From: Methylocaldum szegediense
GTDB taxonomy: Bacteria > Pseudomonadota > Gammaproteobacteria > Methylococcales > Methylococcaceae
Direction: 5' to 3'
NCBI RefSeq assembly: GCF_949769195.1
Contig: NZ_OX458333.1
Span: forward strand, 2,232,001 to 2,296,000
DNA length: 64,000 bases
The notes below the pieces were generated by a model, which was given only the letters and a program-made list of their open reading frames with translations, was not told where the DNA came from and ran no database searches. The position numbers were made by a program, and so were the translations under genes. Within the stretch, counting starts at the first letter, position 1; the number at the start of each line of letters is the position of its first letter. This document shows, piece after piece, positions 8,347 to 28,378 of the stretch.

Positions 8347-8370
8347 CGATATAGAGTCATATATATACCG
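8347..8370. promoter_or_regulatory. Candidate ModE box upstream of TonB receptor operon
   Basis: CGATATAGA-N6-TATATACCG on the plus strand. Read on the minus strand it is CGGTATATA-N6-TCTATATCG, about 16 of 18 matches to the ModE consensus as I recall it (CGnTATATA-N6-TATATAACG). It lies 94 bp upstream of the minus-strand receptor start at 8253. Binding by ModE is inferred. Confidence 0.5.
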
Positions 8371-8531
8371 ACTAAAGAGCGGAAACGGCAAGGTGCAACC
8401 AAAAACGCGTTCTTCCTGCAAGGTCACACAACTTGCATGCCATACCCCCAATAATCGAAAACGATGAACGATCACAGTCGGTCCGCACCTCGACCCAGCT
8501 CGACGAGTCGTGGCATCTCCGGCAGGTCTTA

Positions 8532-8555
8532 CGCTATAACGTAAAAAACCTAACG
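8532..8555. promoter_or_regulatory. Weak candidate ModE box in divergent intergenic region
   Basis: CGCTATAAC-N6-AACCTAACG has the same 24-bp CG-to-CG span as the other candidate sites, with about 13 of 18 consensus matches. The following AT after the last CG also fits. It lies between the divergent TonB receptor gene (start 8253) and the PEP-CTERM-like gene (start 9006). It is weaker than the others and could be chance. Confidence 0.3.
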
Positions 8556-8872
8556 ATTGAAATTCCGCTGTTTTCGGGCTATGCAGCAGGTTTGCGCCCG
8601 AGCGTCATCCTCGCTGCCCGACGGCAGCGCCTCCGCTTTCTGCTTTAGGCGATTTTTACGGACAAGGTCGAAACGAAGCGCCCCGCCAAGCGGTGAATTC
8701 CTTCCGTAGCACTAAAAATGTGCGAAATGTGCAGCGACAACCCCGAATGTCACAATTGTTGTGCGGTTTTTTCGAAATCGGACGAGTCCATTCATCGCAG
8801 CTAGCCGGTAAGACTTTGATATAACGCGCGCTGTGATATCCGCCATAAAACGGCATGCTTCATGCCTACACT

Positions 8873-8896
8873 CGCTATCAATTATAAGTAATAGCG
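8873..8896. promoter_or_regulatory. Palindromic operator-like site upstream of exported protein gene
   Basis: CGCTATCAA-N6-GTAATAGCG has perfectly symmetrical outer arms (CGCTAT / ATAGCG) and the same 24-bp span as the other ModE-like sites, but inner positions deviate from the consensus. It lies 110 bp upstream of the start of the exported protein at 9006. Confidence 0.35.
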
Positions 8897-9005
8897 AAAG
8901 ACGAGATTTACCGGTTCTTAGGTCGGCTATAGCGGTACGCCGACCGCGACGATCAATCGAGTTGGCCCCCGAATCCGATTCCCCACAACCACATGAGAGA
9001 TCGAC

Positions 9006-9872
9006 ATGAACAAACCCCTGTTCACCCATAGTACGGCAGCAATAGCGATTGCCTTGGCGAGTCAAAACGACTTGGCGGTTGCGGCGACCACGATAAGCGT
9101 AGAAGCGACGTCCGACACTTTCTTGACTAATGACATCAATCAGGCGGGCTCGGACATGTCCAGCTTCGGGGCTATGATGATCTCCGCCCCGGTCCAGAAT
9201 CTGGCCATGGGAGTCACCCAATATCGCACCATGGAGAACCTGATCGCCTATAACACGGCGTCCATCAAGGACGGTTTCGACGCTGAATTCGGTGCCGGGA
9301 ACTGGCATGTCACCGACGTGCAATTCAAGTGGTACACCAACTTCGACATTCCCGGCGTACCTGCTAACAACGCGCAGTTCAACGTACCGGCCCCCGGTTA
9401 TTTCAACATCGGCTATTTCAGTAACGACAACTGGTTCAATCCGGCTACCGCGGGACCGGCGGGCACAGCCAACCCCGACCTCAATTGGAATTCCGTATAC
9501 GGATCGGGCGGCGCATACAACGATCTTTTCACCGGCCAGGAATCCGTCGGGACCTTTTACTATCCGGGTGGAACCTTTAACGGTGCGCAAAACTGCGCGG
9601 GGGAAGTCTGCGCCCCACGTTTCTGGGATCTTGAGCTGATACCGTCCATGTTGAGCGATATTGCCGCCGGCGGTTACTTGTCCTTCCACGGTACGGCGGC
9701 GGACGACAATCTCGTTTACCTGATCAACCAGATGACCAAGCCTGACGCCCACCCGCAAATCTTCATCACGGCTGGAGCCGGCCCTGCCCCGGTACCGATT
9801 CCGGCTGCCGTCTGGCTGTTCGGTAGCGCACTCGCGACACCCGTCGGGTTCGATCGGCGCAAGGCGCTGTGA
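9006..9872 (+). CDS. Exported protein with PEP-CTERM-like C-terminal tail
   Basis: A 288-residue exported protein. The N-terminus has a signal-like segment (HSTAAIAIALASQNDLAVAA). The C-terminus reads V-P-I-P-A-A-V-W-L-F-G-S-A-L followed by a short hydrophobic stretch and RRK, which is the VPxPAAVWLF variant of the PEP-CTERM sorting signal recognised by exosortase in related proteobacteria. The middle is rich in Asn, Gly, Tyr and Trp, fits an extracellular beta-rich domain, and contains two Cys (NCAGEVC). Its function is unknown. It is divergent from the TonB operon with three ModE-like palindromes between them. A GAGA Shine-Dalgarno sequence precedes the ATG. Confidence 0.75.
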   Translation: MNKPLFTHSTAAIAIALASQNDLAVAATTISVEATSDTFLTNDINQAGSDMSSFGAMMISAPVQNLAMGVTQYRTMENLIAYNTASIKDGFDAEFGAGNWHVTDVQFKWYTNFDIPGVPANNAQFNVPAPGYFNIGYFSNDNWFNPATAGPAGTANPDLNWNSVYGSGGAYNDLFTGQESVGTFYYPGGTFNGAQNCAGEVCAPRFWDLELIPSMLSDIAAGGYLSFHGTAADDNLVYLINQMTKPDAHPQIFITAGAGPAPVPIPAAVWLFGSALATPVGFDRRKAL

Positions 9873-9929
9873 ACGATGTGCCGAATTCAGAAAGATACCG
9901 AATCCAGCATTAAACCGAGGAGGAATTTT

Positions 9930-11287: not shown

Positions 11288-11288
11288 T

Positions 11289-11749: not shown

Positions 11750-12958
11750 TTAAGCGACGGTCTTCTTGAACTTGGCGGCTTCTTCCGAACCGCCGGTGGC
11801 GTTGCCCTTGCTGTAGGAGTGGGCGCCGACCCCGGCCAGTTGCCCGCCTTGCACCACCAGGTATTCGTTACGGATCGGGCGGCCTTCGAAATAGCACTCC
11901 AGGATTTCGCGAACGCCCGCGGCATACCGCGTCTGCGCCGACAGACTGGTGCCGGAGATATGCGGCGTCATGGCGTGATGCGGCATAGTGCGCCAGGGAT
12001 GGTCGTTGGCAGGCGGTTGCGGGAACCAGACGTCGCCGGCGTACCCCGCCAGGTGGCCGCTCTCCAGGGCGCGGACGATCGCGTCGCGGTCGCACAGCTT
12101 GCCGCGCGCCGTGTTGATCAGATAAGCGCCGCGCTTGAAGTACTTCAGCGTTTGCTCGTTGATCATGTGCTCGGTTTCCGGATGTAGCGGACAGTTCAAG
12201 GTCACCACGTCACACACTTTGGCCAGACTTTCCAGGCTGGTGTGATAGATCAGGCTAAGTTCCTGCTCGACCGCTTCCGGTAAGCGATGGCGATCCATAT
12301 AGTGCAGCTTGACGTCGAAAGGCTTCAGCAAGCGCAACACGCGCAGACCGATGCGGCCCGCCGCCACCGTGCCGACGCTCATGGCCTCCAGGTCATAGGA
12401 GCGCGAAACGCAATCGGCGATGTTCCAGCCACCCTTAAGCACCCACTGGTGGGAGGGAATGAAATTGCGCACCAGGATCAGAATCGACATCACCACGTGC
12501 TCCGCCACGCTGTTGCTGTTGCAATAGGTGACTTCGGCCACGGTGATATTGCGTTCCATCGCGGCCTGCAAATCGGTGTGGTCGGAACCGATACCGGCGG
12601 TAACGATCATCTTGAGTTTTTTCGCCTTGGCGATGCGTTCGGCGGTCATGTAGGCCGGCCAGAACGGTTGGGAAATGACGATCTCCGCGTCGGGCAGTTC
12701 CCGGTCCAGCACGCTGTCGGCGCCGTCCTTGCTGGACGTGACCACGAGCTGGTGGCCGTTGGCTTCCAGGTACTTGCGCAGGCCCAATTCGCCGGAAACG
12801 CTGCCCAGCAAGGTGCCGGGCTTGAAGTCGATCGCCTTGGGAGTCGGCAGGGTTTGTCCGTCCGGGTAACGCGCCGGCTGCGGACAATCGTCCCGCGCAT
12901 AGGATTTCGGGTAACCGTCGACAGGATCGTCATACAGCACGCACACGACTTTTGCCAT
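11750..12958 (-). CDS. fdh: NAD-dependent formate dehydrogenase (metal-independent)
   Basis: A 402-residue D-2-hydroxyacid-dehydrogenase-fold enzyme that oxidises formate to CO2 with NAD+ and needs no metal. It follows the Pseudomonas sp. 101 formate dehydrogenase closely: MAKVVCVLYDDPVDGYPKSYARDD at the start, TAGIGSDHTDL and VTYCNSNSVAEHVVM near the substrate Asn, NTARGKL with the catalytic-type Arg, and MTPHISGTSLSAQ with the active-site His. The length is the family norm. ATG 12958 follows an AAGGTGGAG Shine-Dalgarno sequence. A LysR gene lies 133 bp upstream on the same strand. In methylotrophs this enzyme closes the C1 oxidation chain and supplies NADH. Confidence 0.95.
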   Translation of the reverse strand: MAKVVCVLYDDPVDGYPKSYARDDCPQPARYPDGQTLPTPKAIDFKPGTLLGSVSGELGLRKYLEANGHQLVVTSSKDGADSVLDRELPDAEIVISQPFWPAYMTAERIAKAKKLKMIVTAGIGSDHTDLQAAMERNITVAEVTYCNSNSVAEHVVMSILILVRNFIPSHQWVLKGGWNIADCVSRSYDLEAMSVGTVAAGRIGLRVLRLLKPFDVKLHYMDRHRLPEAVEQELSLIYHTSLESLAKVCDVVTLNCPLHPETEHMINEQTLKYFKRGAYLINTARGKLCDRDAIVRALESGHLAGYAGDVWFPQPPANDHPWRTMPHHAMTPHISGTSLSAQTRYAAGVREILECYFEGRPIRNEYLVVQGGQLAGVGAHSYSKGNATGGSEEAAKFKKTVA

Positions 12959-13091
12959 TTTCTCCACCTTGCTTGAATGTTGTTAGGGGGTGGGTTCGGC
13001 CGGAGCACCGCCCGAACCCGGTAATTCCCGGCCAGGTGGTCGGTATTGTCTAGTTAGGCTCGCGACACGGCCAATCGTTTGCGGTAATCGG

Positions 13092-14010
13092 TCAATTGAT
13101 GGCGTTTATCAGGGCATCGAGGCGGGCCTGCAAGCCGAGTCGGCCCGCGATGTTCCAGGCGGACTCCTGGATCGGCGGCATGGGGTCATGAAAGCGTGAA
13201 ATGAATCCGATGGATCTCGATAGTTCTGGATTCACGGGGATGGCAGTGACCTCCTGCCGCATTTCGAACAGGCTCAAGAGGCTGTGGGGAACCACGCTGT
13301 ACAGCCCGGCGCAGCGGACATGGGCGTATAGGGCTAACACCGAGTCGGTTTCCAGCACCACCCGCGGCGATACGCCGGCCTCCCGGAAGGCGGCGTCGAT
13401 GAGGCGGCGGTTCTGCATATTCGGTGTCAGCAGACAGAGCGGGAGTTCGGCGATGTCGGCCCAGGTCGGTTTGCCGGTGGCCACAGGGAGGTCAGGATCG
13501 CGGGCCAACAGCACATGCCGTTCCCGATACAAAGGCAATGTCCGGAAACCCTTGAGGCGGGGATCCTCCAGATAGGTCAAACCCAGATCGAGTTCAAACC
13601 GGTCGAGTTGGCGAATCAAGTCCTCAGCGCAAAGCGATAGCAACTGGATGGCCACGCCGGGACATTCCGCCTGGTAAGGCCCCGTGAACTGGGGGGGTCA
13701 CTGCCAGGGTCGTCGGAATCGCCCCGATCCGTAAGGTGCCGGTGATTTGCCGGCTGCACAGCGCCGCTTCCTGCCGCATGCCTTCCCAGTCCCGCGCCAG
13801 AATTCGCGCCCATTGCAGCAGCCGCTCGCCTTCCGGCGTAAAGCCCTGGAACCGCTGGCCGCGCCGGACAATGACGACACCCAACTCTTCCTCCAAATGC
13901 TGTATGGCGGTCGACAAGGCCGGTTGAGACACATTGCAGATTTCCGCTGCACGCCCGAAATGGCCGGTTTTGGCCAGCGCGATCAAGTAATGGACTTGAC
14001 GGATAAACAT
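13092..14010 (-). pseudogene. LysR-family regulator with a frameshift
   Basis: The first part (14010 to about 13690) encodes a LysR-type DNA-binding domain, MFIRQVHYLIALAKTGHFGRAAEICNVSQPALSTAIQHLEEELG, and a linker to ...IPTTLAVTP. The effector-binding half (QLLSLCAEDLIRQLDRFELDLGL... to LDALINAIN) continues in another frame. The break is at a run of seven G (13691-13697). Removing one base restores a continuous protein of about 305 residues. It may be a real pseudogene, a phase-variable tract or a homopolymer sequencing error. It lies directly upstream of the formate dehydrogenase gene, so formate/C1-responsive regulation is a reasonable guess. Confidence 0.8.
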
Positions 14011-14323: not shown

Positions 14324-14347
14324 CGTTATAAATATTAAGTTATATCG
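14324..14347. promoter_or_regulatory. Candidate ModE box between LysR/fdh and TonB cluster
   Basis: CGTTATAAA-N6-GTTATATCG has a 24-bp span and near-perfect dyad symmetry (CGnTATA / TATAnCG). About 14 of 18 positions match the recalled ModE consensus. It lies 314 bp upstream of the LysR gene (minus) and 364 bp upstream of the TonB receptor (plus). Confidence 0.45.
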
Positions 14348-14479: not shown

Positions 14480-14503
14480 CGTTATATATCATTTTTTATA
14501 GCG
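14480..14503. promoter_or_regulatory. Strong candidate ModE box upstream of TonB receptor
   Basis: CGTTATATA-N6-TTTATAGCG matches about 16 of 18 positions of the recalled ModE consensus, with the left half perfect. It lies 208 bp upstream of the receptor start at 14711. It is one of the two best sites in the window. Confidence 0.55.
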
Positions 14504-14710
14504 TTATGAGACGAACCAATCCAACGGCACGGGCAAACATCGTCGATCGGGGCGCTTTTCTCGCCGTGTTCGCCGGAGTTCGTTCCGTCTCTATGTGTTC
14601 TTAGGCCGGGCCGGCGCGGACCGAAGAATGTTTTCAGAAGAACGACACAAGCGACGAGAAAACCGATGAAAAACAAAACCTTGATTCAAAGTCTGCTCGG
14701 GGAGAAAGCT

Positions 14711-16951
14711 ATGAAACGATGGTGGATCGTTCCTGCGGGCTTAGGATGCTTACCCGTCTGGGCGGAACCGGCGCCGATCGGCGAACCGCCGGTACTGGAC
14801 GTCGTCACGGTGGAAGGCGTACAGACCGACGCGGATTACGTGGAGCCCAAGGGCAGCCAGCCCAATACGGAAAGCACCGTCAGCCGCGAGGGTATACGGC
14901 GCCTGGCCGGCCCCGGCCAGACCAACGTTTTCAAGGCGCTCGACCTGTTGCCGTCGCTGCATACGGAAACGGCCGATCCTTTCGGTCTGACGGCAAACAG
15001 GGCCATCCGAATTCGCGGGAAGGGCGCCTTCCATCTCGGGCAGACCATTGAGGGCCTGCCGTTGACCGGTGTCGTGGGCGGGGCCGACATTTATGATTTG
15101 GAAAATATGGACGGCATCACCCTCTACCGGGGCGCGGTGCCCCCGGACAAAGGCTTCGGCTTCTCCAACGCCACCGGGCTAATCGACCAGACCATTCTCC
15201 GGCCGTTCGACAAGCCGGGGTTCAGCGTCAGGGAAAGCTTCGGCTCCTATGGCTTTAACCGCGTGTACGGCCGCATCGACTCCGGCCTGCTGCCCACGGA
15301 TACCAAGCTGTTCGCTTCCTATTCCTACACCACCGCGTACAAATGGCGCGGGGCCGGGGAGTCGCCCGCTAATCGGCACAACCTCGGCTTCGGATTCACG
15401 CAAAAGCTGACGGATTCCGCCAAGCTCGAGATTTTCGGCGCCTACAACGATCTCGAATCGCACGATTTCCGCCCCCTGAACTACAGTCAAGCCACCCGTC
15501 TCGACGCGTTCGGAAAATTCGATTACAACAGGCGGCTTTCCGGCATCCCCGGTCAGGACATCAACTACTACGATTTCAACCGAAGAGAATTCTCCGACTT
15601 CAGCCTGTTCGCCAACCTGGAAATCAAACTAACCGATACGTCCAGGATTTCGGTCAAACCCTATTACTGGCGCGACGACGGCTTCCGGCTGTTTGCCTCG
15701 AACAATCTGCTGGGCAGCCCGGGCGTCACCCGCTGGGACATCGAGCACGAACAAGTGGGACTGGTCGCGCAGTACGACACCTCGCTGCAGGGCGTCCAGG
15801 TGACTTTGGGCTACTGGTGGCAGGACATGGAATCGCCGCCGCCCCCGGTGGGGCAAAAGGCTTACCGCGTCACCGCCTCGGGCGACCTGGCCTTTGCCGG
15901 CTGGTCGGTGCTGTCCAAACAGGAAAATCACGTATTCCATAGTCCTTATCTGGTCGTAAACGGCCAGCTCGGCAAGGCTAACCTCCGAGCGGGCGTGCGC
16001 TACCTCGACCAGACCGTGCCGGGAATCCGGTATTACGACACCCAGGGCCTGCCTGACGTCGATTATGACAATGTATTCCGCTTCAATCCCCGGGAAGACC
16101 CGACACGGCGTGTCGCAAGCCAAAGCTTCCAGGAATGGCTGCCGCACTTCGGCGTCAACTACGAAATCACGGACGAGGCCCGCGCCTACTTCACCTATGG
16201 GCGGAACTATGGGCGGCCCGACTGGGGACCGCAGGCCTCCCTGTTCAACGCCTCTAGAGCCCGCTTTACCGCCGCCGGCCTGAATCTCGACAATCTGTTC
16301 CGCCGGCTCAAGCCCGAGATTTCGGATAATTTCGATCTCGGCCTGCGCATTGGCGACGGCAATTGGTGGGTGGCGCCCACGCTGTTCTACGCCATCGTCA
16401 ATCGCAAGGAGGTCAATCTGTACGACCCCGCGATTCAACTGACCTATTACCAGAGCAATGCCGAAGCCCGCTCCTACGGTGCGGAGATCGAAGCGGGGAT
16501 CACGCTGTGGGATGATCTGTCCCTGTTCTCGTCAGTGTCCTACAACCGCTACGAGTTCGAAAACGACGTCCGCACCGCCGCCAACACCGTGATCGCGACG
16601 AAAGGCAAGCAGGTTCCCGACTCGCCCGAGGTCACCGCCAAGGTGGGCCTTACGTACAGGTTTATGGGTTTTGCCATATCGCCCACGGTTCGCTATGTCG
16701 GCGAGCGTTTCGGCGACGCGGAGAACACACAGCGGGTACCCTCCTACACCGTGGCGGATCTCTATATTGATTATGAGAAAAAGGACCTGCTGGGTTTGGG
16801 GGACATCACGCTGGGATTGAGCTTCCTGAACGTGTTCGACAAGCGCTACATCGGCATCATCAGCCAGAACGATATCCAGGTGGCGGGGAATACGACCTAT
16901 TACCCCGGCGCGCCGTTTACCGTGGCGTTCACGGTCGGAGCGAGGTTCTAG
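14711..16951 (+). CDS. TonB-dependent outer-membrane receptor of the metal/chelate cluster
   Basis: A receptor of about 746 residues. It has a signal peptide (KRWWIVPAGLGCLPVWA), a plug domain (VVTVEGVQTDADYV, RAIRIRGKGAFHLGQTIEGLPLTGVVGG, GITLYRGAVPPDKGFGFSNATGLIDQTIL) and a long barrel ending in Phe (FTVAFTVGARF). The plug is unlike the receptor at 6229-8253, so the two probably have different ligands. ATG 14711 has a GGGGAGAAAGC Shine-Dalgarno sequence and starts the signal peptide. ATG 14666 would add 15 residues. The binding-protein gene follows two bases after the stop, so this is the head of an operon for import of a chelated metal or vitamin-like ligand. Confidence 0.9.
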   Translation: MKRWWIVPAGLGCLPVWAEPAPIGEPPVLDVVTVEGVQTDADYVEPKGSQPNTESTVSREGIRRLAGPGQTNVFKALDLLPSLHTETADPFGLTANRAIRIRGKGAFHLGQTIEGLPLTGVVGGADIYDLENMDGITLYRGAVPPDKGFGFSNATGLIDQTILRPFDKPGFSVRESFGSYGFNRVYGRIDSGLLPTDTKLFASYSYTTAYKWRGAGESPANRHNLGFGFTQKLTDSAKLEIFGAYNDLESHDFRPLNYSQATRLDAFGKFDYNRRLSGIPGQDINYYDFNRREFSDFSLFANLEIKLTDTSRISVKPYYWRDDGFRLFASNNLLGSPGVTRWDIEHEQVGLVAQYDTSLQGVQVTLGYWWQDMESPPPPVGQKAYRVTASGDLAFAGWSVLSKQENHVFHSPYLVVNGQLGKANLRAGVRYLDQTVPGIRYYDTQGLPDVDYDNVFRFNPREDPTRRVASQSFQEWLPHFGVNYEITDEARAYFTYGRNYGRPDWGPQASLFNASRARFTAAGLNLDNLFRRLKPEISDNFDLGLRIGDGNWWVAPTLFYAIVNRKEVNLYDPAIQLTYYQSNAEARSYGAEIEAGITLWDDLSLFSSVSYNRYEFENDVRTAANTVIATKGKQVPDSPEVTAKVGLTYRFMGFAISPTVRYVGERFGDAENTQRVPSYTVADLYIDYEKKDLLGLGDITLGLSFLNVFDKRYIGIISQNDIQVAGNTTYYPGAPFTVAFTVGARF

Positions 16952-16953
16952 CC

Positions 16954-18991: not shown

Positions 18992-19001
18992 AAGAAATCT
19001 C

Positions 19002-19976
19002 ATGAACTTCGGGCTATTTTGCTTCTACGAGAATTACGACGGCGATTACGCCAAGGTATTGGCCTCCCAGACCGCGCTGGTGCAGTACGCCGAGGGACTG
19101 GGGTTTCAGGAAGCCTGGGTCGCCGAGCATCACTTCACCGATTTCGGTGTCAGCCCTTCCGTCCTGCTGTTGCTGGCCCATTTGGCCGGTGTCACGAAGC
19201 GCATCCGTTTGGGCACCGCGGCGCTGTTGCTGCCTTTTCACGATCCCATCAAGGCGGCCGAGGACATCGCCACCCTCGATCATTTGAGCGGCGGCAGACT
19301 CAATCTGGGTGTCGCCCATGGCGGCCCTTTTCCTCTGCAAAACAGGCATTTCAAGGTGCCGCCCGAAACCGCCCGGACGAAGATGCTGGAAGCCCTCGAA
19401 CTCATCGTCCGGCTGCTCGGCACCGATAAGGTCAGCCACTCCGGAACCCATTTTCAGATCGAGGGCGTCACGACTCACCCGAAACCGCTGCAACGCCCGA
19501 TACCCGTGTTCCTGGCATCGCAAAATCCCGAGGTCGTGCATCATGCCGCGAACCGCGGTTACGGGCTCCTCGGGGGGCAAGGTGCAACCATTGATAAGCT
19601 CAAGCCAACTCTCGCCCACTATCCTGGGATCAATCCCTCATCGCCCAAGCCGCTCACCCTGCTTCGAACCTTTTACGTCGCCAAAACCCGAGCGGCCGCC
19701 TTGGCGGTAGCGCTACCCTCAATCCGGCGTTTCCGGGAGAGAATGAGAACCATGCTGGCGGACAATGGAGAGCCATCCGGTCTCGTGACGATCGAGGTCG
19801 ACCGTTTGCTGGAAAACGCGCTGATCGGCGATGTGGCGGAATGCCGGGACAAGATACAAAAACTCCGGGAAGAACTGGATCTGAACAGCTTGGTGTTGAA
19901 ACCCGCCGCCAACGATCCCGCCGCCAATCGCTATAGCCTGTCGCTGTTCGGCGAGGAGGTCATGCCCTATGTGTAA
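19002..19976 (+). CDS. LLM-class flavin-dependent monooxygenase 2
   Basis: A second, clearly different luciferase-like monooxygenase (324 residues), 10 bases after the first. Blocks are MNFGLFCFYENYDGDY, YAEGLGFQEAWVAEHHFTDFGVSPSVLLLLAHLAG, TKRIRLGTAALLLPFHDPIKAAEDIATLDHLSGGRLNLGVAHGG and HPKPLQRPIPVFLASQNPE. It resembles the bacterial-luciferase alpha-like side of the family more than its neighbour does, so the pair might act as two enzymes or as a heteromer. Its last codons lie at the left end of the inserted IS481 element, and the native stop was probably displaced by the insertion. Confidence 0.88.
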   Translation: MNFGLFCFYENYDGDYAKVLASQTALVQYAEGLGFQEAWVAEHHFTDFGVSPSVLLLLAHLAGVTKRIRLGTAALLLPFHDPIKAAEDIATLDHLSGGRLNLGVAHGGPFPLQNRHFKVPPETARTKMLEALELIVRLLGTDKVSHSGTHFQIEGVTTHPKPLQRPIPVFLASQNPEVVHHAANRGYGLLGGQGATIDKLKPTLAHYPGINPSSPKPLTLLRTFYVAKTRAAALAVALPSIRRFRERMRTMLADNGEPSGLVTIEVDRLLENALIGDVAECRDKIQKLREELDLNSLVLKPAANDPAANRYSLSLFGEEVMPYV

Positions 19977-21090
19977 ACGTCGGGTTTCTCCTTCTCAAGA
20001 GAAACCTTTTAGGCAGGGACTAGGTGTCGCGTCTCGTGTGATTATTTACCGAGAAGGAGTTATGCTCTGTTCGAAGCCCGGAGCCTTCTCCAGGAGATAT
20101 TCGGTTCGTCCAAGTGAGGTTTCTCTCCATGCAGATTCGTCTTCATAAGAACGCCCGTACCACCCCGGCCGTTCGGCAGGCCATTCAAGCGTCCACGTTG
20201 AGCGAGCGCGCCTTGGCCCAAAAGCATGGCATTAGCCGAACGACCGTCCGCAAGTGGAAACACCGATCCTCGGTCGAAGATGCCTCGCATCGGCCCCACA
20301 CCCTCAGAACCACGCTCACGCCCGCCCAGGAAGCCATCGTGGTCTACCTCCGCCAAGCTCTGCTCCTCCCCTTGGATGATCTCCTGGCCGTGACCCGGGA
20401 ATTTCTCAATCCCGCCGTGTCCCGTTCCGGGCTAGACCGCTGCCTGCGCCGCCACGGGGTGGCGTCCCTCAAGACCCTGCTTCCGCCTACAGAGAAGGCG
20501 AAGGTCAAACCCTTCAAGGCCTATGAGCCCGGCTTCCTTCACCTGGATGTTAAGTACTTGCCCGCCATCGACGGCGAACCCCGCCGATACCTGTTCGTCG
20601 CCATCGACCGCGCCACCCGCTGGGTCTATGTCGCCCTCAAGCCCAACCGCTCCGCCTTAAGCGCAAAGGACTTCCTCAAAGCGGTGATTCAGGCCGCGCC
20701 TTTCCGCATCCAGAAATGCCTGACCGACAACGGCTCGGAGTTTACCGACCGTTTCCTGACCCGAACTCGGCAGCCCTCGGGGACGCATGAGTTTGACCGC
20801 CTCTGTACTGAACAAGGCATCGAACATCGCCTGATTCCGCCGGGCCGGCCCCAAACGAATGGCCTGGTGGAACGCTTCAATGGCCGCATCGAGGAGGTGT
20901 TGCAAACCCATCACTTCGATTCAACCGCCGATCTGGACACCACCTTGCACCGCTATGTCGAGCTGTACAATCATCACATTCCCCAAAAGGCCTTAGGCCA
21001 TCTCACCCCGATCCAGGCTCTCAAAAACTGGCAACTGTCCCATCCTCATCTTTTTCGAAAGAAGGTTTACGATCTTGCGGGACTTGACAA
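19970..21090. mobile_element. IS481-family insertion sequence splitting the transport operon
   Basis: An element of about 1.1 kb lies between the second monooxygenase and the FecCD permease, in the same orientation as the operon. The left end is TGTGTAAACG (19970) and the right end reads TTGTCAAGTC on the opposite strand (to 21090). The trinucleotide CTA flanks both sides, with CTAG intact on the right. That fits the CTAG-type target preference known for IS481. The inverted repeats are weak, so exact ends are approximate. Confidence 0.75.
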
Positions 21091-21094
21091 CTAG
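20129..21094 (+). CDS. IS481-family transposase (rve integrase core)
   Basis: A 321-residue transposase. An N-terminal helix-turn-helix (ALAQKHGISRTTVRKWKHR) is followed by an rve-type core: the first Asp in LDVKYLPAIDG, the second in TDNGSEF, and the Glu in NGLVERFNGRIEEVLQ. The end has the IS481-style HYVELYNHHIPQKALGHLTPIQAL pattern. ATG 20129 starts 'MQIRLHKNARTTPAVR', the usual IS481 beginning. The stop codon is formed by the CTAG at the right boundary. The gene appears intact. Confidence 0.93.
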   Translation: MQIRLHKNARTTPAVRQAIQASTLSERALAQKHGISRTTVRKWKHRSSVEDASHRPHTLRTTLTPAQEAIVVYLRQALLLPLDDLLAVTREFLNPAVSRSGLDRCLRRHGVASLKTLLPPTEKAKVKPFKAYEPGFLHLDVKYLPAIDGEPRRYLFVAIDRATRWVYVALKPNRSALSAKDFLKAVIQAAPFRIQKCLTDNGSEFTDRFLTRTRQPSGTHEFDRLCTEQGIEHRLIPPGRPQTNGLVERFNGRIEEVLQTHHFDSTADLDTTLHRYVELYNHHIPQKALGHLTPIQALKNWQLSHPHLFRKKVYDLAGLDN

Positions 21095-21098
21095 GCCC

Positions 21099-22109
21099 AT
21101 GATCGTGGACTATCGCCTGGCGGGATTGCTGCTCCTGCTCGTTCTGATGTCGGTGTTGTCTCTGACCCTGGGCCGCTATCCCATAGCGCTGCCGGAACTG
21201 GTACAGGTGCTGGTCGGCCTCGGCAGCGGGCAAGTCGCGGACGAGGGACAGCAAGTCTTGCGCAACGTGCTGTTCGAGATCCGGCTACCTCGCATCCTGG
21301 CAGCGGTCCTGGTGGGCGCCGGGCTATCGGTTTCCGGCGCCGCCTTTCAGGCGATCTTCGTCAATCCGCTGGTCTCGCCGGGGCTGCTCGGGGTGCTGGC
21401 GGGAGGTTCCTTCGGCGCGGCGTTGGGAATGATCATCTCCGACCACTCGCTGGTGGTACAAGTCAGCGCCTTTCTCTTCGGCCTGCTCGCGGTGCTCATA
21501 GCCCTCGGCATCGTCAGGGTCTATCGCAACGAATCCCTGCTCATGCTGGTGTTGGGCGGCATCATCAGCAGCGGATTGTTCACCGCCCTATTGTCGATCG
21601 TCAAATATCTCGCAGATCCCTACAACCAACTGCCCGCCATCGTCTACTGGCTGATGGGCAATCTGTCCAACGTCGAGCTGTCGGTAGTGTTGACTTTGGC
21701 ACTGCCGATGCTGGCCGGCATCCTGCTTTTAGCGGTCTACGCCCGGCACATGAACGTGCTCAGCATGGGTGACGAGGAGGCGCGGTCCCTGGGCATCGAC
21801 ACGCGGCGCGTACGGCTCGTGATCATTCTCTCCGCCACCTTGATCAGCGCACTCACCGTGGTGATGGCCGGGATGATCGGCTGGATCGGCCTCATCGTCC
21901 CGCACATCGCGCGACTGATCGTAGGACCGGACAACGGACGTCTGGTGCCGGCCAGCGCCCTGTTGGGCGGGATATTCCTGTTGGTGGTGGACGACCTGGC
22001 GCGCAATCTGTTTACCGTGGAAATCCCCATCGGCGTGCTCAGCGAATTGCTCGGCATCCCCATATTCATCCTGGTATTGCGCAATGCCCGCAAGGGATGG
22101 AGTGGATGA
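21099..22109 (+). CDS. FecCD-type ABC importer permease
   Basis: A 336-residue polytopic membrane protein of the FecCD/BtuC family with about ten hydrophobic segments. It has the family blocks IRLPRILAAVLVGAGLSVSGAAFQAIFVNPLVSPGLLGVLAGGSFGAALG, GDEEARSLGIDTRRVR and GWIGLIVPHIARLIVGPDN. It forms the inner-membrane channel for the cluster's ligand and would dock the binding protein at 16954. ATG 21099 is just past the IS481 boundary. The IS now separates it from the promoter-proximal genes. The stop overlaps the ATPase start (ATGA). Confidence 0.92.
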   Translation: MIVDYRLAGLLLLLVLMSVLSLTLGRYPIALPELVQVLVGLGSGQVADEGQQVLRNVLFEIRLPRILAAVLVGAGLSVSGAAFQAIFVNPLVSPGLLGVLAGGSFGAALGMIISDHSLVVQVSAFLFGLLAVLIALGIVRVYRNESLLMLVLGGIISSGLFTALLSIVKYLADPYNQLPAIVYWLMGNLSNVELSVVLTLALPMLAGILLLAVYARHMNVLSMGDEEARSLGIDTRRVRLVIILSATLISALTVVMAGMIGWIGLIVPHIARLIVGPDNGRLVPASALLGGIFLLVVDDLARNLFTVEIPIGVLSELLGIPIFILVLRNARKGWSG

Positions 22110-22918
22110 TGGTGCTGGAAGCCCGGAACATCGTGTTCGGCTATAGCGACCGGGTGGTGCTGAACGGGGTTTCGGTCCAGGTCGAGGCGGGAAAAGTGGT
22201 GTCCCTGCTGGGACCCAACGGCACCGGCAAGAGCACGCTGCTCAAGATTCTGCTGGGCATCAAGCGGCCCGCGAAAGGCGAGGTCCTCCTGGACGGCACG
22301 CCGCTCGCTCGCATCGCGCCCCGCGAATACGCCCGCAATGTGGCCTATGTGCCGCAACTCCACAACGCCACCTTTCCCTATACTGTGCTCGACGTGGTGC
22401 TCATGGGCCGAATGCCGCATACGGGCTTTTTCTCAGGCTATTCGAAAAAAGACCGCCGCCTTGCCGAAGAGGCACTGGAGCGCCTCTCTCTCGGCCATCT
22501 CAAGACGCGGCCGTATTCGGAAATCAGCGGCGGCGAACGCCAACTAGTCCTCATCGCCCGTGCGCTGGCACAGGAAGCGCGGATTTTCATCCTGGACGAA
22601 CCGGTCGGCGGACTCGATTACGGCAATCAGCTGCGTCTCCTGGAACGCATCCGCAGCCTCGCCCGGGAAGGCTATGCGTTCATCCAGTCCACCCATTTTC
22701 CGGAACACGCCCTGCTGGTTTCAGACAGCGTATTGCTGCTGAACAGTGGGCGGATCGTCGCCGAAGGAAATCCCGTCGACGTGATCACCCCCGAAAACAT
22801 TTACCGGCTTTATGGCGTGGAGGTGGATATGGTGCGCCTCGGCGGCAGCTATTCCGCCTGCGTACCCAGATTCTGTGCGGATCGGACCCGCGAACACCGG
22901 TTTGCTCTCAGGAAATAG
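22106..22918 (+). CDS. ABC importer ATP-binding protein (FecE/BtuD type)
   Basis: A 270-residue nucleotide-binding subunit with Walker A GPNGTGKST near residue 37, Q-loop VPQLHN, signature ISGGERQLV, Walker B IFILDEP, D-loop GGLDYG and the switch His in QSTHFPEHA. It is the partner of the FecCD permease, with which it overlaps by four bases. The tail beyond LYGVEVDMV is longer than usual. The gene ends about 415 bp before nifH on the same strand. Confidence 0.93.
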   Translation: MMVLEARNIVFGYSDRVVLNGVSVQVEAGKVVSLLGPNGTGKSTLLKILLGIKRPAKGEVLLDGTPLARIAPREYARNVAYVPQLHNATFPYTVLDVVLMGRMPHTGFFSGYSKKDRRLAEEALERLSLGHLKTRPYSEISGGERQLVLIARALAQEARIFILDEPVGGLDYGNQLRLLERIRSLAREGYAFIQSTHFPEHALLVSDSVLLLNSGRIVAEGNPVDVITPENIYRLYGVEVDMVRLGGSYSACVPRFCADRTREHRFALRK

Positions 22919-23147: not shown

Positions 23148-23163
23148 TGGTACGAATCTTGGT
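23148..23163 (+). promoter_or_regulatory. Possible sigma-54 promoter of nifH
   Basis: TGGTACG-N4-TTGGT has the -24 GG and the spacing of a sigma-54 promoter, but the -12 GC is replaced by GG. It lies about 170 bp before nifH. I found no clear NifA upstream site (TGT-N10-ACA) in the 230 bases before it, so the call is weak. Confidence 0.3.
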
Positions 23164-23184
23164 TATATACCGTTGGAAATAACG
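23161..23184. promoter_or_regulatory. Candidate ModE box in the nifH upstream region
   Basis: GGTTATATA-N6-GAAATAACG matches about 15 of 18 positions of the recalled ModE consensus, and the following AT also fits. It overlaps the downstream edge of the weak sigma-54 candidate and lies about 150 bp before nifH. If bound, ModE could act directly on nitrogenase transcription. Confidence 0.45.
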
Positions 23185-23220
23185 ATTCGCCGCCTTCATC
23201 GTCCCGGATAACGGGCGCGG

Positions 23221-24214
<994 letters not shown>

Positions 24215-24557
24215 GGAAAGAGGAGGCGCTCGAATCCGACTTTTATGCCATTCGGCATTCGAACGAACATCACTAGGGTGTGTTAGCCCTTCGACGGGCT
24301 CAGGACAGGCCCTTCGACGGGCTCAGGACAGGCTCTGCGTAACCCACCGATTCGAGGTGCTCGGTGGGTCACAGCCTGGCGGCCTAACCCACTCTACTTG
24401 GACTCTAGCCGAGCGATACGCGTGCGTAGCTCGGCCTACCTGTTCAGCCGGGTCCCGTGGCCGTTCACGATGATGAGGCGGAGCCGCCTCGACGCTCGCC
24501 ATGATGGGCCGCCCGGTAACTTGGTTAAATCCGCCATTCACTAAAAGGACCATTGCC
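24215..24557. repeat. nifH-nifK spacer with REP-like repeats; nifD absent
   Basis: Only 343 bases separate nifH and nifK. The spacer contains two perfect tandem 23-bp copies of a GCCCTTCGACGGGCTCAGGA-type unit (24286-24308, 24309-24331). These are followed by a TAACCCACCGATTCGAGG / GGTGGGTCA palindromic unit (about 24340-24371), also found near 34655. No reading frame resembles NifD, neither its N-terminus nor its C-terminus. Similar repeats elsewhere in the window make recombination or mis-assembly across repeats plausible. Confidence 0.85.
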
Positions 24558-26117
24558 ATGCCACAAAACTCCGAACACGTGATCGACCATTTCAACCTAT
24601 TCCGCCAACCCGAATACACCGAGATGTTCGAGAACAAGAAGCGGGAATTCGAATTCATGGAACCCGAAGATAAGGTCGCAGCAACTAGGGAATGGATGAA
24701 AACCGAGGAATATCGCGACAAAAATTTCGCGCGCGAAGCCCTGGTCATCAATCCGTCCAAGGCCTGCCAGCCGCTGGGGGCTGTATTCGCCGCCCTCGGC
24801 TTCGAGGGCACCCTGCCCTTCGTCCACGGTTCCCAGGGCTGCGTGGCCTATTACCGCAGCCACTTGAGCCGCCACTTCAAAGAACCGGCGCCCTGCGTGT
24901 CGTCGTCCATGACCGAGGACGCCGCGGTATTCGGGGGCCTGGGCAATATGATCGACGGCCTGGCCAATGCCTACAACTTGTACAAGCCCAAGATGATCGC
25001 CGTGTCCACCACGTGCATGGCCGAGGTGATCGGCGACGATCTCAATGCCTTCATCAAGACGGCCAAGGAAAGAGGCAGCGTGCCGCCGGATTTCGAAGTG
25101 CCGTTCGCACACACGCCGGCTTTCGTCGGCAGCCACATCACCGGCTACGACAATATGATGCGCGGCATTCTTCAACACTTCTGGGACGGCAAGGCCGGTA
25201 CCGAGGAGCCCTTGGCGCGCAAACCCAAGGACTCGATCAATGTCATCGGCGGCTTCGACGGCTTCTCCGTGGGCAACCTTCGGGAAATCCGGCGCATGCT
25301 CGAGCTCATGGAGGTCGACTTCACTATCCTCGGGGACAACAGCGACGTCCTGGATACCCCGACCGACGGCGAATACCGCATGTTCGACGGCGGCACTACC
25401 CAGGAACAGACCGCCAATGCCTTGCACGCCAAGGCGACCATTTCCATGCAGGAATTCTGTACGGAAAAAACCCTGCCCTTCATCGCCGAGCACGGCCAGG
25501 AGGTGATCGCCCTAAACCACCCGGTCGGGGTCGGCGCTACCGATGGCTTTCTCATGGCGGTATCGCGCATCACCGGCAAACCCATCCCCAAGGCATTGGA
25601 GCGGGAGCGCGGACAACTGGTGGACGCCATCGCCGATTCTTCCGCCCATATCCACGGCAAATCCTTCGCCATCTACGGCGACCCGGATCTCTGCCTGGGC
25701 CTCGCCGGATTCCTGCTGGAACTGGGCGCCGAACCGAAGCATATCCTGTCGACCAACGGCAGCAAGGCTTGGGCGGAAAAGGTGGAAACCATGCTTTCGT
25801 ATTCGCCCTTCGGCCAGAACTGTCATGTCTATCCCGGCAGGGATTTGTGGCACATGCGTTCGCTGCTGTTCACCGATCCGGTCGACTTCCTGATCGGCAA
25901 CACCTACGGCAAATACCTCGAGCGCGATACAGGTACGCCCCTGATCCGCATCGGCTTCCCGGTCTTCGATCGCCATCACCACCATCGCTATCCGGTGTGG
26001 GGCTATCAGGGCGCGCTCAACGTGCTGGTCTGGATCCTGGACAAGATTTTCGACGACATGGACCGCAACACGATCGTGCCGTCCAAGACCGATTACAGCT
26101 TCGATATCATTCGTTGA
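24558..26117 (+). CDS. nifK: Nitrogenase molybdenum-iron protein beta chain
   Basis: A 519-residue NifK, which with NifD forms the MoFe protein alpha2-beta2 and contributes three of the P-cluster cysteines. They are visible in [30 protein letters not shown] and [12 protein letters not shown]. The [13 protein letters not shown] segment (P-cluster Ser) and [16 protein letters not shown] are also intact. ATG 24558 follows an AAAAGGACC Shine-Dalgarno sequence and gives the normal start (residues 17-30 [14 protein letters not shown]). The protein looks functional, yet its obligate partner gene nifD is not beside it. Confidence 0.97.
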
Positions 26118-26262
26118 ACTTCTCCCGAGATCGGAAAAACTTCGGGACATTCGTTTCTCAATCGAGCTACTGTCGGGACAGGGACGACAGGGATGTCCCA
26201 TTGCGTAGCTCGCAGCATTCCAGTATGACTGCGCACTCCATCATGATCAGGAGGTAATGATG

Positions 26263-26670
26263 ATGACCACCGAAAACGCTCAACTCACGGAACAGCACAT
26301 CTCGAAAATGGTCCACCGCTTCTATGAACGCGCCATGGCCGATGACGGCCTGCGCCCGATATTCGAGGCGACGATACACGACTGGGATGCACATCACAGG
26401 GTCGTCGTGGATTTCTGGTCGCGTGTCCTGCTGAATACAGACCGCTATCGGGGCTCGCCCTATCCGCCGCACGCCGGCCTTCCCATTCGTTCCGAACATT
26501 TCGACCGCTGGCTGACGCTGTTCCGGGAAACGGCTCAGGAAGTCCTTCCGGCCGACGCAGCAGAACTGGCCATAGCTCGAGCCGAACACATGGCGGAAGC
26601 ATTCAAGGCCGGCATGTTCCATGGCTTCGGAACCCCACTCAAGCCGAGGCTCGGCCATCCGATCACGTAG
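26263..26670 (+). CDS. Group III truncated haemoglobin
   Basis: A 135-residue globin of the trHbP/Ctb (group III) class. Blocks are ISKMVHRFYERAMADDGLRPIFEATIHDWDAHHRVVVDFWSRVLL, PYPPHAGLPIRSEHFDRWLTLFRETAQE with the proximal-type His, and AEHMAEAFKAGMF. Such globins bind O2 or NO and may detoxify NO or buffer oxygen, which suits a gene directly after nitrogenase. ATG 26263 is preferred over 26257 and 26260 because it lies 8 bases from AGGAGG. It could be co-transcribed with nifK. Confidence 0.85.
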   Translation: MTTENAQLTEQHISKMVHRFYERAMADDGLRPIFEATIHDWDAHHRVVVDFWSRVLLNTDRYRGSPYPPHAGLPIRSEHFDRWLTLFRETAQEVLPADAAELAIARAEHMAEAFKAGMFHGFGTPLKPRLGHPIT

Positions 26671-26717
26671 GCGTCGATCTCGTCGCCCGAGCGGAGGATG
26701 CCGGAGCCGTCGAAATC

Positions 26718-26838
26718 CTTAGGGAAGCTCTGAAAAAGTGGATTCCGTTCATGCCCTTCCACGGACTTGTCGTAAGCCAAGTCGAAGGGCTGAGGGCAAA
26801 TGGCCTACCAGGATAGGCACTTTCAGAGCTTCCTTAGA
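26718..26838. repeat. MITE-like repeat with terminal inverted repeats
   Basis: The left end CTTAGGGAAGCTCTGAAAAAGTG and right end CACTTTCAGAGCTTCCTTAG are imperfect inverted repeats of about 20 bp around a 70-bp core. A related copy is at 55581-55673 (GGAAGCATTGAACAAG then TGGATTCCGTTC in common). The right end overlaps the last codons of the minus-strand ModC-like gene, so the element supplies that gene's stop codon. Confidence 0.65.
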
Positions 26839-28058
26839 TTTTTACCCGGCCATCGCTGCATCCAATCATGGCGGGAACGTTGGCCGATTCCGCCGACGTC
26901 GTGAAAGGAATGGCCATTAAGTCCGGCGCTCTTAGCGGTGCGGAGAAGCCGCCGGGCAGCGGCCGAACAGTCGGATATCATATCCGCCGCGAGAAAGCTG
27001 AACGCCTGCGTCTTGGCGAGACAGTAAACCGTATCGCCTTCGCCGATGTTCATTGCGGCAAAAGCCCGCCGGGTAATCTCGGCGATCAGGGTCGTGCCGA
27101 CGTCGATTTGGATCACCACGCGATCTTCCCGCGGAATCACGGCACACACCCTACCTTTGATCTGATTTTGAATGGAGATGCCTTTTACCGGCTGGGTGGA
27201 CAACGCAATGTCGCTCGGTCGCAAACTGACGTAATAGGTACTCCCGCAGTGGGCAAGAGGCGTGTACGGTAAGATCAGGGGCAAGCCGAAGAACCTCCCC
27301 AAAGTGCAGCCGTGCACGGAGTCATGACTCAGAATCGTCACCGGCAAGATGTTCCCGACTGTGGAAAGCCCTGCTGTGTGTAGCGGGACTTGTTCGCGCG
27401 CCAGTTCGCTCAGAAAACCAGATGCCAGCACTTTTCCCCCGCTCATCAGGATGAGAACGTCGCTCAAGTGGAGGAGTTCGCCCAAGGCATGGCTGGACTG
27501 GACGACTCTCAAGCCATGCTTCTCAATCGCAAACCGGAGAAGATCCAGAATTTTCTCTCGCCGCGTTTGCTCGATAGCCGACAACATATCATCCAGAAGC
27601 AGCACCTTAGGCGAACTCAACAAAGCCTTTCCGAGCACCACCCGCTGTCGTTCGCCGGCGGAAAGATTTCGAGCGCGAAAACGAAGCAGTTCCGTCAAAG
27701 CCAGGAGCTGAGCGATATCCGGTAAAGCGAAATAAGGACGAGGAGCTCTACTTTGGGATTCACCGTCCAGCAAGTTTTCTCTCACCGTGCGCGTGGCATC
27801 GAGCGGGCTGCCCTGGGAACACAAAGCAATCAATCCGTCTTCGGAAAGCCTGTTGATCCGGTTTCGGCTATCGAAAAGCACCTCACCGTCCAATGAGACG
27901 TATCCCCAATCCGGCGAACAATGGCCGGCCAGACACTTCAAGAGGCGCGATTTTCCCGCTCCGGATGGCCCGAAAAGCCCCGCCGATTTCTGGTTCAGCC
28001 TGAACTGCGCGCGAATAGGAGAACTATCCCGCGATAGCGTGATATCAACATCCAACAT
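26823..28058 (-). CDS. Degenerate ModC-like ATP-binding protein
   Basis: A 411-residue paralogue of ModC with an ABC ATPase domain (about 1-235) and a C-terminal Mop/TOBE domain (about 295-365, GISIQNQIKGRVCAVIPREDR). Compared with the ModC at 33470 it is degraded. Walker A is GPSGAGKSR, the Q-loop reads ALCSQGSP, the signature is LSAGERQ, and Walker B ends LLLDD instead of LLLDE, so the catalytic Glu is an Asp. The switch His remains (QSSHALGE). A tail of about 45 residues after the Mop domain runs into a MITE. No permease gene is next to it. It may be an inactive or regulatory subunit. Confidence 0.8.
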   Translation of the reverse strand: MLDVDITLSRDSSPIRAQFRLNQKSAGLFGPSGAGKSRLLKCLAGHCSPDWGYVSLDGEVLFDSRNRINRLSEDGLIALCSQGSPLDATRTVRENLLDGESQSRAPRPYFALPDIAQLLALTELLRFRARNLSAGERQRVVLGKALLSSPKVLLLDDMLSAIEQTRREKILDLLRFAIEKHGLRVVQSSHALGELLHLSDVLILMSGGKVLASGFLSELAREQVPLHTAGLSTVGNILPVTILSHDSVHGCTLGRFFGLPLILPYTPLAHCGSTYYVSLRPSDIALSTQPVKGISIQNQIKGRVCAVIPREDRVVIQIDVGTTLIAEITRRAFAAMNIGEGDTVYCLAKTQAFSFLAADMISDCSAAARRLLRTAKSAGLNGHSFHDVGGIGQRSRHDWMQRWPGKNLRKL

Positions 28059-28157
28059 GGTCCATCCGATTGCATGAAATGTGACAAAAAACTCGTTTTT
28101 GTTCGAAAGTCGACATTGCTTTGGCTACGACATTCGTCCGACGCGCGCGTTTGAGCC

Positions 28158-28200
28158 CCGCATACGATATATATATATATATATCCATAACGCTATGCGG
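28158..28200. promoter_or_regulatory. Long AT palindrome between modC-like and porin genes
   Basis: CCGCATA and TATGCGG frame a (TA)n tract with CGATATATA at the left and CCATAACG at the right. The half-sites match ModE half-sites, but they are separated by 10 rather than 6 bases. It lies about 100 bp upstream of the minus-strand ModC-like gene. Confidence 0.35.
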
Positions 28201-28354
28201 TCAGGAACCGCAAGTATGACCGAAAGCGCCTTCCTGGAACGTTCTACAACATACGTGCCATATTTCTCGCCCACGGCGGCTAGCACGCCCTAGTTGCCGG
28301 CTTAGGAGCACTGATTCAGCCACGTTACACATGGCCTCGTTCTTGCTTACACAT

Positions 28355-28378
28355 CGATATAACGTCTTAAACATAACG
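28355..28378. promoter_or_regulatory. Candidate ModE box upstream of porin-mod operon
   Basis: CGATATAAC-N6-AACATAACG, preceded by AT, has the 24-bp span and about 14 of 18 matches to the recalled ModE consensus. It lies 176 bp before the porin gene that heads the mod genes, where autoregulation by the ModE encoded downstream would be expected. Confidence 0.5.

Follow-up and report, generated by a model that had tools for sequence, protein, structure and literature searches.

The left half of a 64,000-nucleotide stretch of the Methylocaldum szegediense genome (contig NZ_OX458333.1, positions 2,232,001 to 2,296,000 of the forward strand; hereafter the window) carries seven 24-bp palindrome-like sites. 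They lie near genes for two TonB-dependent receptors (TonB1 and TonB2), a secreted protein, an orphan nitrogenase pair (nifH2–nifK2) and molybdate transport, the last group including a gene for the regulator ModE. An earlier reading of the letters alone (the sequence-only reading) had proposed these sites as a ModE regulon. Our analysis indicates that five of them are very probably ModE operators, and that this half of the window most likely forms a regulon for scavenging and sparing molybdenum that includes TonB-dependent uptake. Positions are window coordinates; G numbers denote genomes (G000 holds the window), L numbers denote fetched relative loci, and scores refer to the operator matrix described below. 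The sites, together with one AT repeat, are:

8347–8370: candidate ModE operator, 97 bp 5′ of TonB1 (start 8250, minus strand); score 25.4, with 0 of 399,460 background positions as high
8532–8555: borderline ModE-like site, 282 bp 5′ of TonB1; score 17.9, with 1 of 399,460 as high
8873–8896: weak ModE-like palindrome (10 of 12 symmetric pairs), 110 bp 5′ of a PEP-CTERM-like gene; score 13.8, with 2 of 399,460 as high
14324–14347: candidate ModE operator, distal, 5′ of TonB2; score 24.8
14480–14503: candidate ModE operator, proximal, 163 bp 5′ of the TonB2 open reading frame (ORF); score 30.2, inside the E. coli operator range
23161–23184: candidate ModE operator before nifH2–nifK2, overlapping the sigma54-like element TGGTACGAATCTTGG; score 24.4
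28355–28378: candidate ModE operator before the porin–modA–modE–mop–modB–modC genes; score 22.9
28165–28192: (AT)n run on the ModC2 side; score 16.4

All seven 24-mers are present where the sequence-only reading had placed them. The term palindrome applies loosely, as 5–10 of 12 symmetric pairs match. Compared with an 18-position consensus (the better of CGCTATATA-N6-TATATAACG or its mirror), the sites match at 15 (8347), 13 (8532), 12 (8873), 14 (14324), 17 (14480), 14 (23161) and 13 (28355) positions; the figure of about 16 of 18 previously given for 8347 and 14480 is therefore replaced by 15 and 17. The pattern CGNTATATA-N6-TATATANCG, with up to three mismatches, occurs five times in the window against 0.03 expected from dinucleotide shuffles of the window, one of the five being the (AT)n run at 28165. 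CGNTATA-N10-TATANCG, with up to two mismatches, occurs ten times, including all seven sites, against 0.66 expected from dinucleotide shuffles. Read backwards, the first pattern gave two window matches (0.03 expected), one of them the (AT)n run and the other a one-base shift of the 8347 site. Across the whole genome (4.9 Mb), the two best matches, with one mismatch each, are 8347 and 14480, and five of the seven matches with up to three mismatches fall in the window, which makes up 1.3% of the genome. The genome-wide totals do not favour operators: the backwards control gave as many matches or more (7 forward versus 8 backward; 49 versus 61 for a looser pattern), so that the unusual feature is the clustering and not the number. 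Because pattern counts alone are for this reason not strong, we turned to a matrix built from operators outside this genome.

The genes modA, moaA, dmsA and napF of E. coli, which we take to be ModE-controlled, supplied these operators. Scanning the corresponding E. coli K-12 regions with the ModE consensus yielded one clear best place near each gene. This consensus, ATCGCTATATA-N6-TATATAACGAT, is the one given in an excerpt of PMC2700814. The matrix was made from only those four operators, in both orientations and ignoring the spacer, and they score 28.9–31.4 on it. As background we scored twenty 20-kb stretches of the M. szegediense genome (399,460 positions; the whole genome was searched by pattern only), in which the maximum was 18.4 and the next score 14.3. 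Five sites (8347, 14324, 14480, 23161 and 28355) score 22.9–30.2, above every background position, and five such sites in 20 kb have a probability of about 6e-7 when the background rate is taken at its upper 95% limit. The matrix check suggested in the sequence-only reading was thus run in part, with the five sites exceeding all of a genome sample of about 400 kb. From 35 kb onward, where no similar sites had been noticed, the best score is 8.5 (at 56825), so the absence there is real. Chance AT-rich DNA as the source of the sites is ruled out by the shuffles, the 400-kb background and the permuted matrices introduced below.

A ModE is encoded downstream of the site at 28355, among genes for molybdate uptake:

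26823–28058, minus strand: ModC2, a ModC-like ATPase with a TOBE domain (ModC model below cut-off)
28554–30020, plus strand: Alginate_exp-type porin (PF13372)
30082–30843, plus strand: ModA (TIGR01256 above cut-off)
30881–31696, plus strand: ModE, helix-turn-helix (HTH) plus two Mop domains
32179–32607, plus strand: di-Mop molbindin (TIGR00638, two stretches)
32728–33477, plus strand: ModB (TIGR02141 above cut-off)
33470–34594, plus strand: ModC (TIGR02142 above cut-off)

The gene order after 28355 is porin, ModA, ModE, an ORF without a Pfam match, the di-Mop protein, ModB and ModC. As the sequence-only reading had it, the protein at 30881 is a ModE with two Mop domains: Mop and TOBE each match twice, and residues 27–268 align with E. 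coli ModE (PDB 1b9m/1o7l). Its HTH falls below the curated cut-offs (TIGR00637, 90.5 bits, E 5.5e-26, cut-off 98.5; PF00126, 22.5 bits, cut-off 26.6). The counterpart of the porin site in G426 (L022:5848) scores only 18.6. Distant relatives of the porin, 26–29% identical, are preceded by sites scoring 31.3 (L207), 19.8 and 20.8 (L202) and 16.6 (L203). The (AT)n run at 28165–28192 is four bases longer than in G426, where a 24-bp CG..CG ModE-type site scoring 22.0 is found (L022:5662). At L064:2881–4680 (G458), a Porin_O_P gene stands divergent from modABC with a site scoring 15.6 between them; this gene, of another porin type, possibly takes the role of the Alginate_exp porin.

The site at 8347 faces an operon on the minus strand:

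6229–8250, minus strand: TonB1, TonB-dependent receptor (PF00593 and PF07715; signal peptide MNFKHQW..)
4884–6212, minus strand: SBP, a periplasmic binding protein, PhnS2/Fe(III)-binding-like (PF13343 and others; PhnS2 model below cut-off; PDB matches to Fe(III)-binding proteins)
3529–5172, minus strand: di-haem oxidoreductase (DHOR; PF06537), its ORF overlapping that of SBP

Both plug and barrel domains of TonB1 are matched. Its listed ORF starts too early; the signal peptide places the start at 8250, and 8347 therefore lies 97 bp upstream. DHOR probably also starts later than its ORF. SBP was found in 14 of the 301 genomes of the order, the window's own included. Leaving out two partial matches and the G665 contig, which has no TonB1, we fetched the remaining ten relatives with TonB1, and in all ten a site scoring 24.2–30.9 lies upstream of the receptor gene. 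The distance to the extrapolated TonB1 start is about 67–149 bp in nine and 443 bp in L205. Across these loci (190 kb) the matrix reports 17 sites with a score of 20 or more, whereas 200 column-permuted matrices averaged 0.08 such sites and never exceeded 5. Six of the ten loci have modE close by, and seven have at least one of modE, modABC and mop. A TonB2 operon in Nitrotoga begins with a TonB1 relative that has a site scoring 31.1. TonB1 relatives in L025 and L114 showed no site in the stretch read, and L114 begins beside the gene, so that its upstream DNA is missing.

The two sites at 14324 and 14480 precede a longer operon:

14666–16951, plus strand: TonB2, TonB-dependent receptor (PF00593 barrel; TIGR01783 below cut-off)
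16954–17985, plus strand: MolA-like periplasmic binding protein (PBP; PF01497)
17969–18991, plus strand: luciferase-like monooxygenase LLM1 (PF00296)
19002–19976, plus strand: luciferase-like monooxygenase LLM2 (PF00296)
21075–22109, plus strand: FecCD permease (PF01032)
22097–22918, plus strand: ATP-binding cassette (ABC) ATPase, FecCD-partner type (PF00005; best NCBIfam models, all below cut-off, are F420-0, heme, corrinoid and Fe-dicitrate ABC ATPases)

For TonB2, Pfam matched the barrel and reported no plug at 0.001. A PBP profile (alignment A1) searched against the PDB matched HI_1472 (3psa/3psh) at 8e-23, the fourth match after three generically named chains; we take HI_1472 to be MolA of Haemophilus influenzae, with a role in molybdate uptake. 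The parts of a MolBCA-type importer are all present, that is, a MolA-like PBP, a BtuC-like permease and a BtuD-like ATPase. The G426 locus has an additional TonB2-like gene (50% identical) ahead of its TonB2 (96%), and the two sites there, L021:10633 (24.4) and L021:10979 (29.2), lie upstream of that additional gene. An rve-type transposase lies inside the window's operon between LLM2 and FecCD (20114–21094); G426 has no room for it at that place, and no LLM1 match of its own.

PBP is rare, occurring in 5 of 301 genomes of the order and 2 of 369 in a class sample (own genome counted). Starting from an alignment of the five PBPs, we examined the best 80 of 451 related stretches. In the best 33 loci (605 kb) the matrix finds 14 sites with a score of 20 or higher; with 100 permuted matrices the mean was 0.18 and the largest count 2. 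None of the 14 lies inside a matched gene; 13 are found 131–1,537 bp before a TonB2, TonB1, LLM1, FecCD or PBP match, and the remaining one is 5.1 kb away (L093:970). The other 47 of the best 80 loci hold 11 sites, against 0.63 (largest 4). L161 and L162 account for two of these and L143 for one, which precedes a ModE match; the remaining eight represent two places in four Citrobacter genomes. At the first of these places, Citrobacter L127 has a site scoring 30.9 immediately ahead of a TonB receptor gene; its site at the second (23.0) coincides with the 5′ edge of a further PBP ORF. Both positions agree to within ten bases in the three remaining Citrobacter loci, and the first-place sites of the four score 29–34. 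TonB2-operon relatives with sites scoring at least 24 come from Nitrobacter, Nitrotoga, Hyphomicrobium, Sulfurospirillum, Citrobacter and a Desulfocapsaceae bacterium. The Desulfocapsaceae locus (L094) has in one row a 150-residue ModE-type HTH protein, a site scoring 25.7, a radical-SAM gene, TonB2, FecCD, ATPase, PBP and tonB, and further along a NifA-like activator, a nifH-type gene, PII, anfD, anfG, anfK and anfO. The gene immediately following the site encodes the radical-SAM protein (L094:4810–5871; HmdB/BioB-like, below cut-offs). The TonB2 operon of Nitrotoga (L099:11043–12867) includes two genes that possibly make or handle a chelator, one weakly matching a methyltransferase-dimerisation model and the other a DUF364 'heavy-metal chelation' gene. 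In G146, a Mop protein is encoded near a cluster of TonB1, TonB2, PBP and LLM2 relatives.

Among the PBP-bearing genomes, sites tend to go with a ModE-type HTH. Such a domain was detected at E 1e-5 in 23 of the 31 genomes, in only five of them above the family cut-off; the call in G695 is a single 42-bit match in a 406-residue frame and could reflect a different LysR-type protein. With this HTH, 10 of 23 genomes had a site scoring 20 or more; none of the 8 genomes without it had one (p 0.026). At a threshold of 18 the numbers are 12 of 23 versus 0 of 8 (p 0.0096), sites occurring only where a ModE-type HTH was found. We consider it highly improbable that another regulator, for instance the neighbouring LysR-type protein, binds the palindromes and that their likeness to ModE operators is coincidental. 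LysR-type regulators also bind AT-rich dyads, and a LysR-type gene stands beside the sites and, in L063 and L064, near nifH2–nifK2, but a matrix from E. coli ModE operators alone scores the window sites nearly as high as its own operators, the window's LysR gene is split by a frame change, and in other genomes sites occur where the neighbour is a ModE-type gene.

What the two TonB systems carry is a separate question. We lean, with modest confidence, towards molybdenum or tungsten. An unlikely alternative is that the sites are ModE operators and the TonB systems import chelates of iron, vanadium, a lanthanide or copper that are needed when molybdenum is short. The relatives of TonB1, TonB2 and SBP in NCBIfam and the PDB are largely siderophore or iron proteins, and the Desulfocapsaceae TonB2 operon adjoins Fe-only nitrogenase genes. 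Excerpts of the literature point the same way, describing TonB-receptor operons of Azotobacter vinelandii that are induced without molybdenum and vanadium under VnfA1 (PMC9542535) and lanthanide uptake by TonB receptors in methylotrophs (PMC11317620). Set against this, seven of the ten TonB1 relatives have molybdenum-related genes nearby, and PBP resembles MolA. Moreover, five nitrite-oxidiser loci (L093, L099, L105, L111 and L112) carry the PBP system together with ModE-type sites, and a tblastn search of these loci for NifH and NifK gave no match.

The remaining strong site, at 23161, lies before nitrogenase genes:

23264–24214, plus strand: NifH2 (TIGR01287 above cut-off; likely start ATG at 23333)
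24501–26117, plus strand: NifK2, orphan nitrogenase beta subunit (TIGR01286, 840 bits; cut-off 427)
26257–26670, plus strand: bacterial-like globin (PF01152)

The sequence-only reading had named nifH as the target. A nifH is there, as part of a second nifH–nifK pair without nifD and not of the main nif operon. The genome's other nitrogenase-type genes (Oxidored_nitro above cut-off) form a single four-gene cluster at 4.56 Mb, 2.3 Mb away. Two NifK matches at E 1e-120 were found in 6 of the 301 genomes of the order, and at least one in 150. In five relatives, the copy nearest NifK2 sits in a locus without NifD; the loci of G390 and G446 are also without NifH, and the 11-kb G446 contig (L062) breaks off where nifK2 ends. 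By contrast, NifD was present in all 12 first-copy (NifK1) loci checked. NifK2 is NifK by sequence, but lies outside any complete nifHDK operon. In a NifK tree, 19 NifK1 rows share one fork (81/99 support) and the six NifK2 rows lie outside it, the root not being fixed. At eight positions all six NifK2 agree on a residue that no NifK1 shares. Motifs with a P-cluster role in NifK are kept, FVGSH in six of six NifK2 and KACQPLGA in five of six; in G390 one of four strings is not unchanged. The globin gene that follows nifK2 in the window also has counterparts near nifH2–nifK2 in G410 and G458.

The upstream regions of the six nifH2/nifK2 genes hold sites scoring 24.4, 28.7 (G426), 27.4, 24.5, 21.7 and 14.0 (G446). 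Their alignment contains a conserved island of TGG, A and G, then TTGG(A/T)T.T; its GG-to-G spacing, 12, is that of sigma54 promoters, and the ModE site begins within the TTGG. Some 75 bp upstream comes a further block, GTTT..GTGC. The main nifH of G000 and G426 has TGGCAC-N5-TTGC, the canonical sigma54 promoter, and TGT-N10-ACA, the consensus of NifA sites; neither element was found in canonical form before nifH2 of these two genomes. The main nif operon itself was rejected as a ModE target: eight nifHDK clusters (L065–L072) have no site scoring above 14 before nifH, L173–L176 being left out.

It is rather unlikely that nifH2–nifK2 is a decaying or selfish duplicate riding with the molybdenum cluster, with no role of its own. 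Such a duplicate would fit the missing nifD and the small number of codon differences between G000 and G426, lower for NifK2 and NifH2 than for NifK1, which suggests recent transfer of the cluster. However, the NifK2 differences are mostly synonymous (52 against 15 replacements; 183 and 36 in NifK1), so NifK2 appears to be under selection. In addition, the P-cluster motifs are kept, NifK2 is distinct from the NifK1 rows in six genomes, and the promoter element is conserved. NifH2, NifK2, the globin, ModC2 and the porin are 97–99.8% identical between G000 and G426 (L022), and NifK1 differs far more at the codon level; the molybdenum/nif2 cluster has probably been exchanged recently between genomes.

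Taken together, the regulon proposed in the sequence-only reading is supported by five strong sites, their recurrence before the same genes and the encoded ModE, and is trimmed by 8532 (17.9), which is borderline, and 8873 (13.8), which is weak; singly, neither is established. Further observations weigh against ModE control or narrow it. At a threshold of 22, the association with ModE-type HTH genes becomes 8 of 23 versus 0 of 8 (p 0.062), and 13 of the 23 ModE-bearing PBP genomes have no site scoring at least 20 in the stretch fetched, so that ModE control of the TonB2-type importer, though apparently common, does not seem universal. In the order itself, L023 and L024 have no strong site before TonB2 (in L024, matched same-strand genes run to the contig end), and the G446 site before nifK2 is weak (14.0). 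E. coli ModE also activates some genes, so repression is not a given. Finally, the TonB receptors and SBP score best against iron/siderophore families or, for SBP, phosphonate-type binding proteins, so that molybdenum is an inferred substrate.

These data are compatible with the following scheme. With ample molybdate (or tungstate), ModE dimers carrying the metal would occupy the sites and most likely repress; at nifH2–nifK2 the operator overlaps the −12 region of the promoter, and ModE would there block polymerase. When the metal becomes scarce, ModE would leave and four units would be switched on: the porin together with ModABC; TonB1, SBP and the di-haem oxidoreductase; TonB2, the MolA-like binding protein, the FecCD/ATPase importer and the luciferase-like monooxygenases; and the orphan nifH2–nifK2 with the globin. 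Both TonB systems would bring molybdenum or tungsten, probably bound to an organic chelator, across the outer membrane; once in the cell, the chelator may be broken down by the flavin monooxygenases. NifK2, retaining its P-cluster motifs, might then replace NifK beside the main NifD; such a molybdenum-starvation subunit is a possibility that we raise without favouring it. A combined proposal is less likely than not: that bacteria of at least three phyla share a ModE-controlled, TonB-dependent import of molybdenum or tungsten chelates (TonB2, MolA-like protein, FecCD/ATPase, often chelate-breaking flavin monooxygenases), that methanotrophs have a second such system with a di-haem oxidoreductase, and that ModE there turns on a NifK2 that pairs with ordinary NifD, from a sigma54-like promoter whose −12 half is overlapped by the operator.

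The E. coli ModE–molybdate regulon is among the closest known systems, sharing the operator sequence (22.9–30.2 in the window, 28.9–31.4 in E. coli), a ModE homologue and modABC as targets; to these the window adds two TonB-receptor operons, a porin and a nifH–nifK pair. MolBCA of H. influenzae (HI1470–1472), a molybdate/tungstate importer, likewise combines a MolA-related Peripla_BP_2 protein, a FecCD permease and an ABC ATPase, whereas the window version is encoded with a TonB receptor and luciferase-like monooxygenases, and MolA is only its fourth PDB match. Nitrogenase, nitrite oxidoreductase and formate dehydrogenase need molybdenum, and to our knowledge the passage of molybdenum through the outer membrane, especially in chelated form, is poorly understood. 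Conserved ModE-type operators before two distinct TonB-receptor operons provide concrete candidate uptake genes in methanotrophs, nitrite oxidisers and others, and a ModE-controlled nifK without nifD raises the question of whether one subunit of molybdenum nitrogenase is exchanged when the metal is short. The sequence-only reading is right in substance, and the finding is larger than first described; the conserved sites before metal-uptake operons and a spare nitrogenase subunit gene suggest a little-explored molybdenum-scavenging programme under ModE.

Parallels also exist in A. vinelandii. According to an excerpt of PMC9542535, its VnfA1 class B operons encode a TonB receptor with an ABC importer, are induced without molybdenum and vanadium, and in one case end in a NifD-like gene; they are controlled by VnfA1/VnfA3, whereas the window has ModE-type sites and its nif genes are nifH and nifK. 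The same excerpt places ModE sites before vnfA1 and anfA, activators of the alternative nitrogenases. Both arrangements tie a ModE site to a nitrogenase gene used at low molybdenum, but the window site precedes a Mo-type nifH–nifK pair without nifD and the A. vinelandii sites precede activator genes. An additional nifK outside the main nif islands of another methanotroph, Methyloferula stellata AR4, is similar by its description in an excerpt of PMC4358397. The open-access literature that we searched yielded no paper on ModE-controlled TonB uptake or a ModE-controlled orphan nifHK, subscription journals being outside its scope and absence therefore unproven.

Between the TonB1 and TonB2 operons lie further genes that the sequence-only reading had listed as targets, among them:

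9006–9872, plus strand: PEP-CTERM-like secreted protein (C-terminus VPIPAAVWLFGSALATPVGFDRRKAL; no Pfam or NCBIfam match)
11750–12967, minus strand: NAD-dependent formate dehydrogenase (PDB 2gsd at 1.4e-230)

The fdh target is identified by its PDB 2gsd match as the NAD-dependent type, which we take to be metal-free. None of the top-scoring ModE sites in the window stands directly before it. Formate dehydrogenase genes also occur near TonB2 or nifHK2 genes in L021, L023, L063 and L064, and a metal-free enzyme beside these genes fits molybdenum sparing despite the lack of a top-scoring site directly before it. The adjacent LysR-type gene (13104–14010, minus strand) is split between two frames at about 13693, corresponding to residues 1–106 and 106–302 of a relative, and in the G426 locus it is likewise in two separate pieces.

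The PEP-CTERM-like gene was not accepted as a firm regulon member. The 24-mer reported before it is there, but the site is weak and has no strong counterpart at the relatives' genes (L198 and L200, in G426 and G390), around which the only sites were one scoring 16.1 at a distance of about 5.7 kb and one scoring 13.0 at 440 bp. In G390 (L200:9570–16595), three PEP-CTERM relatives occur together with a globin, 74% like the one beside nifK2, and a Mop-domain match.

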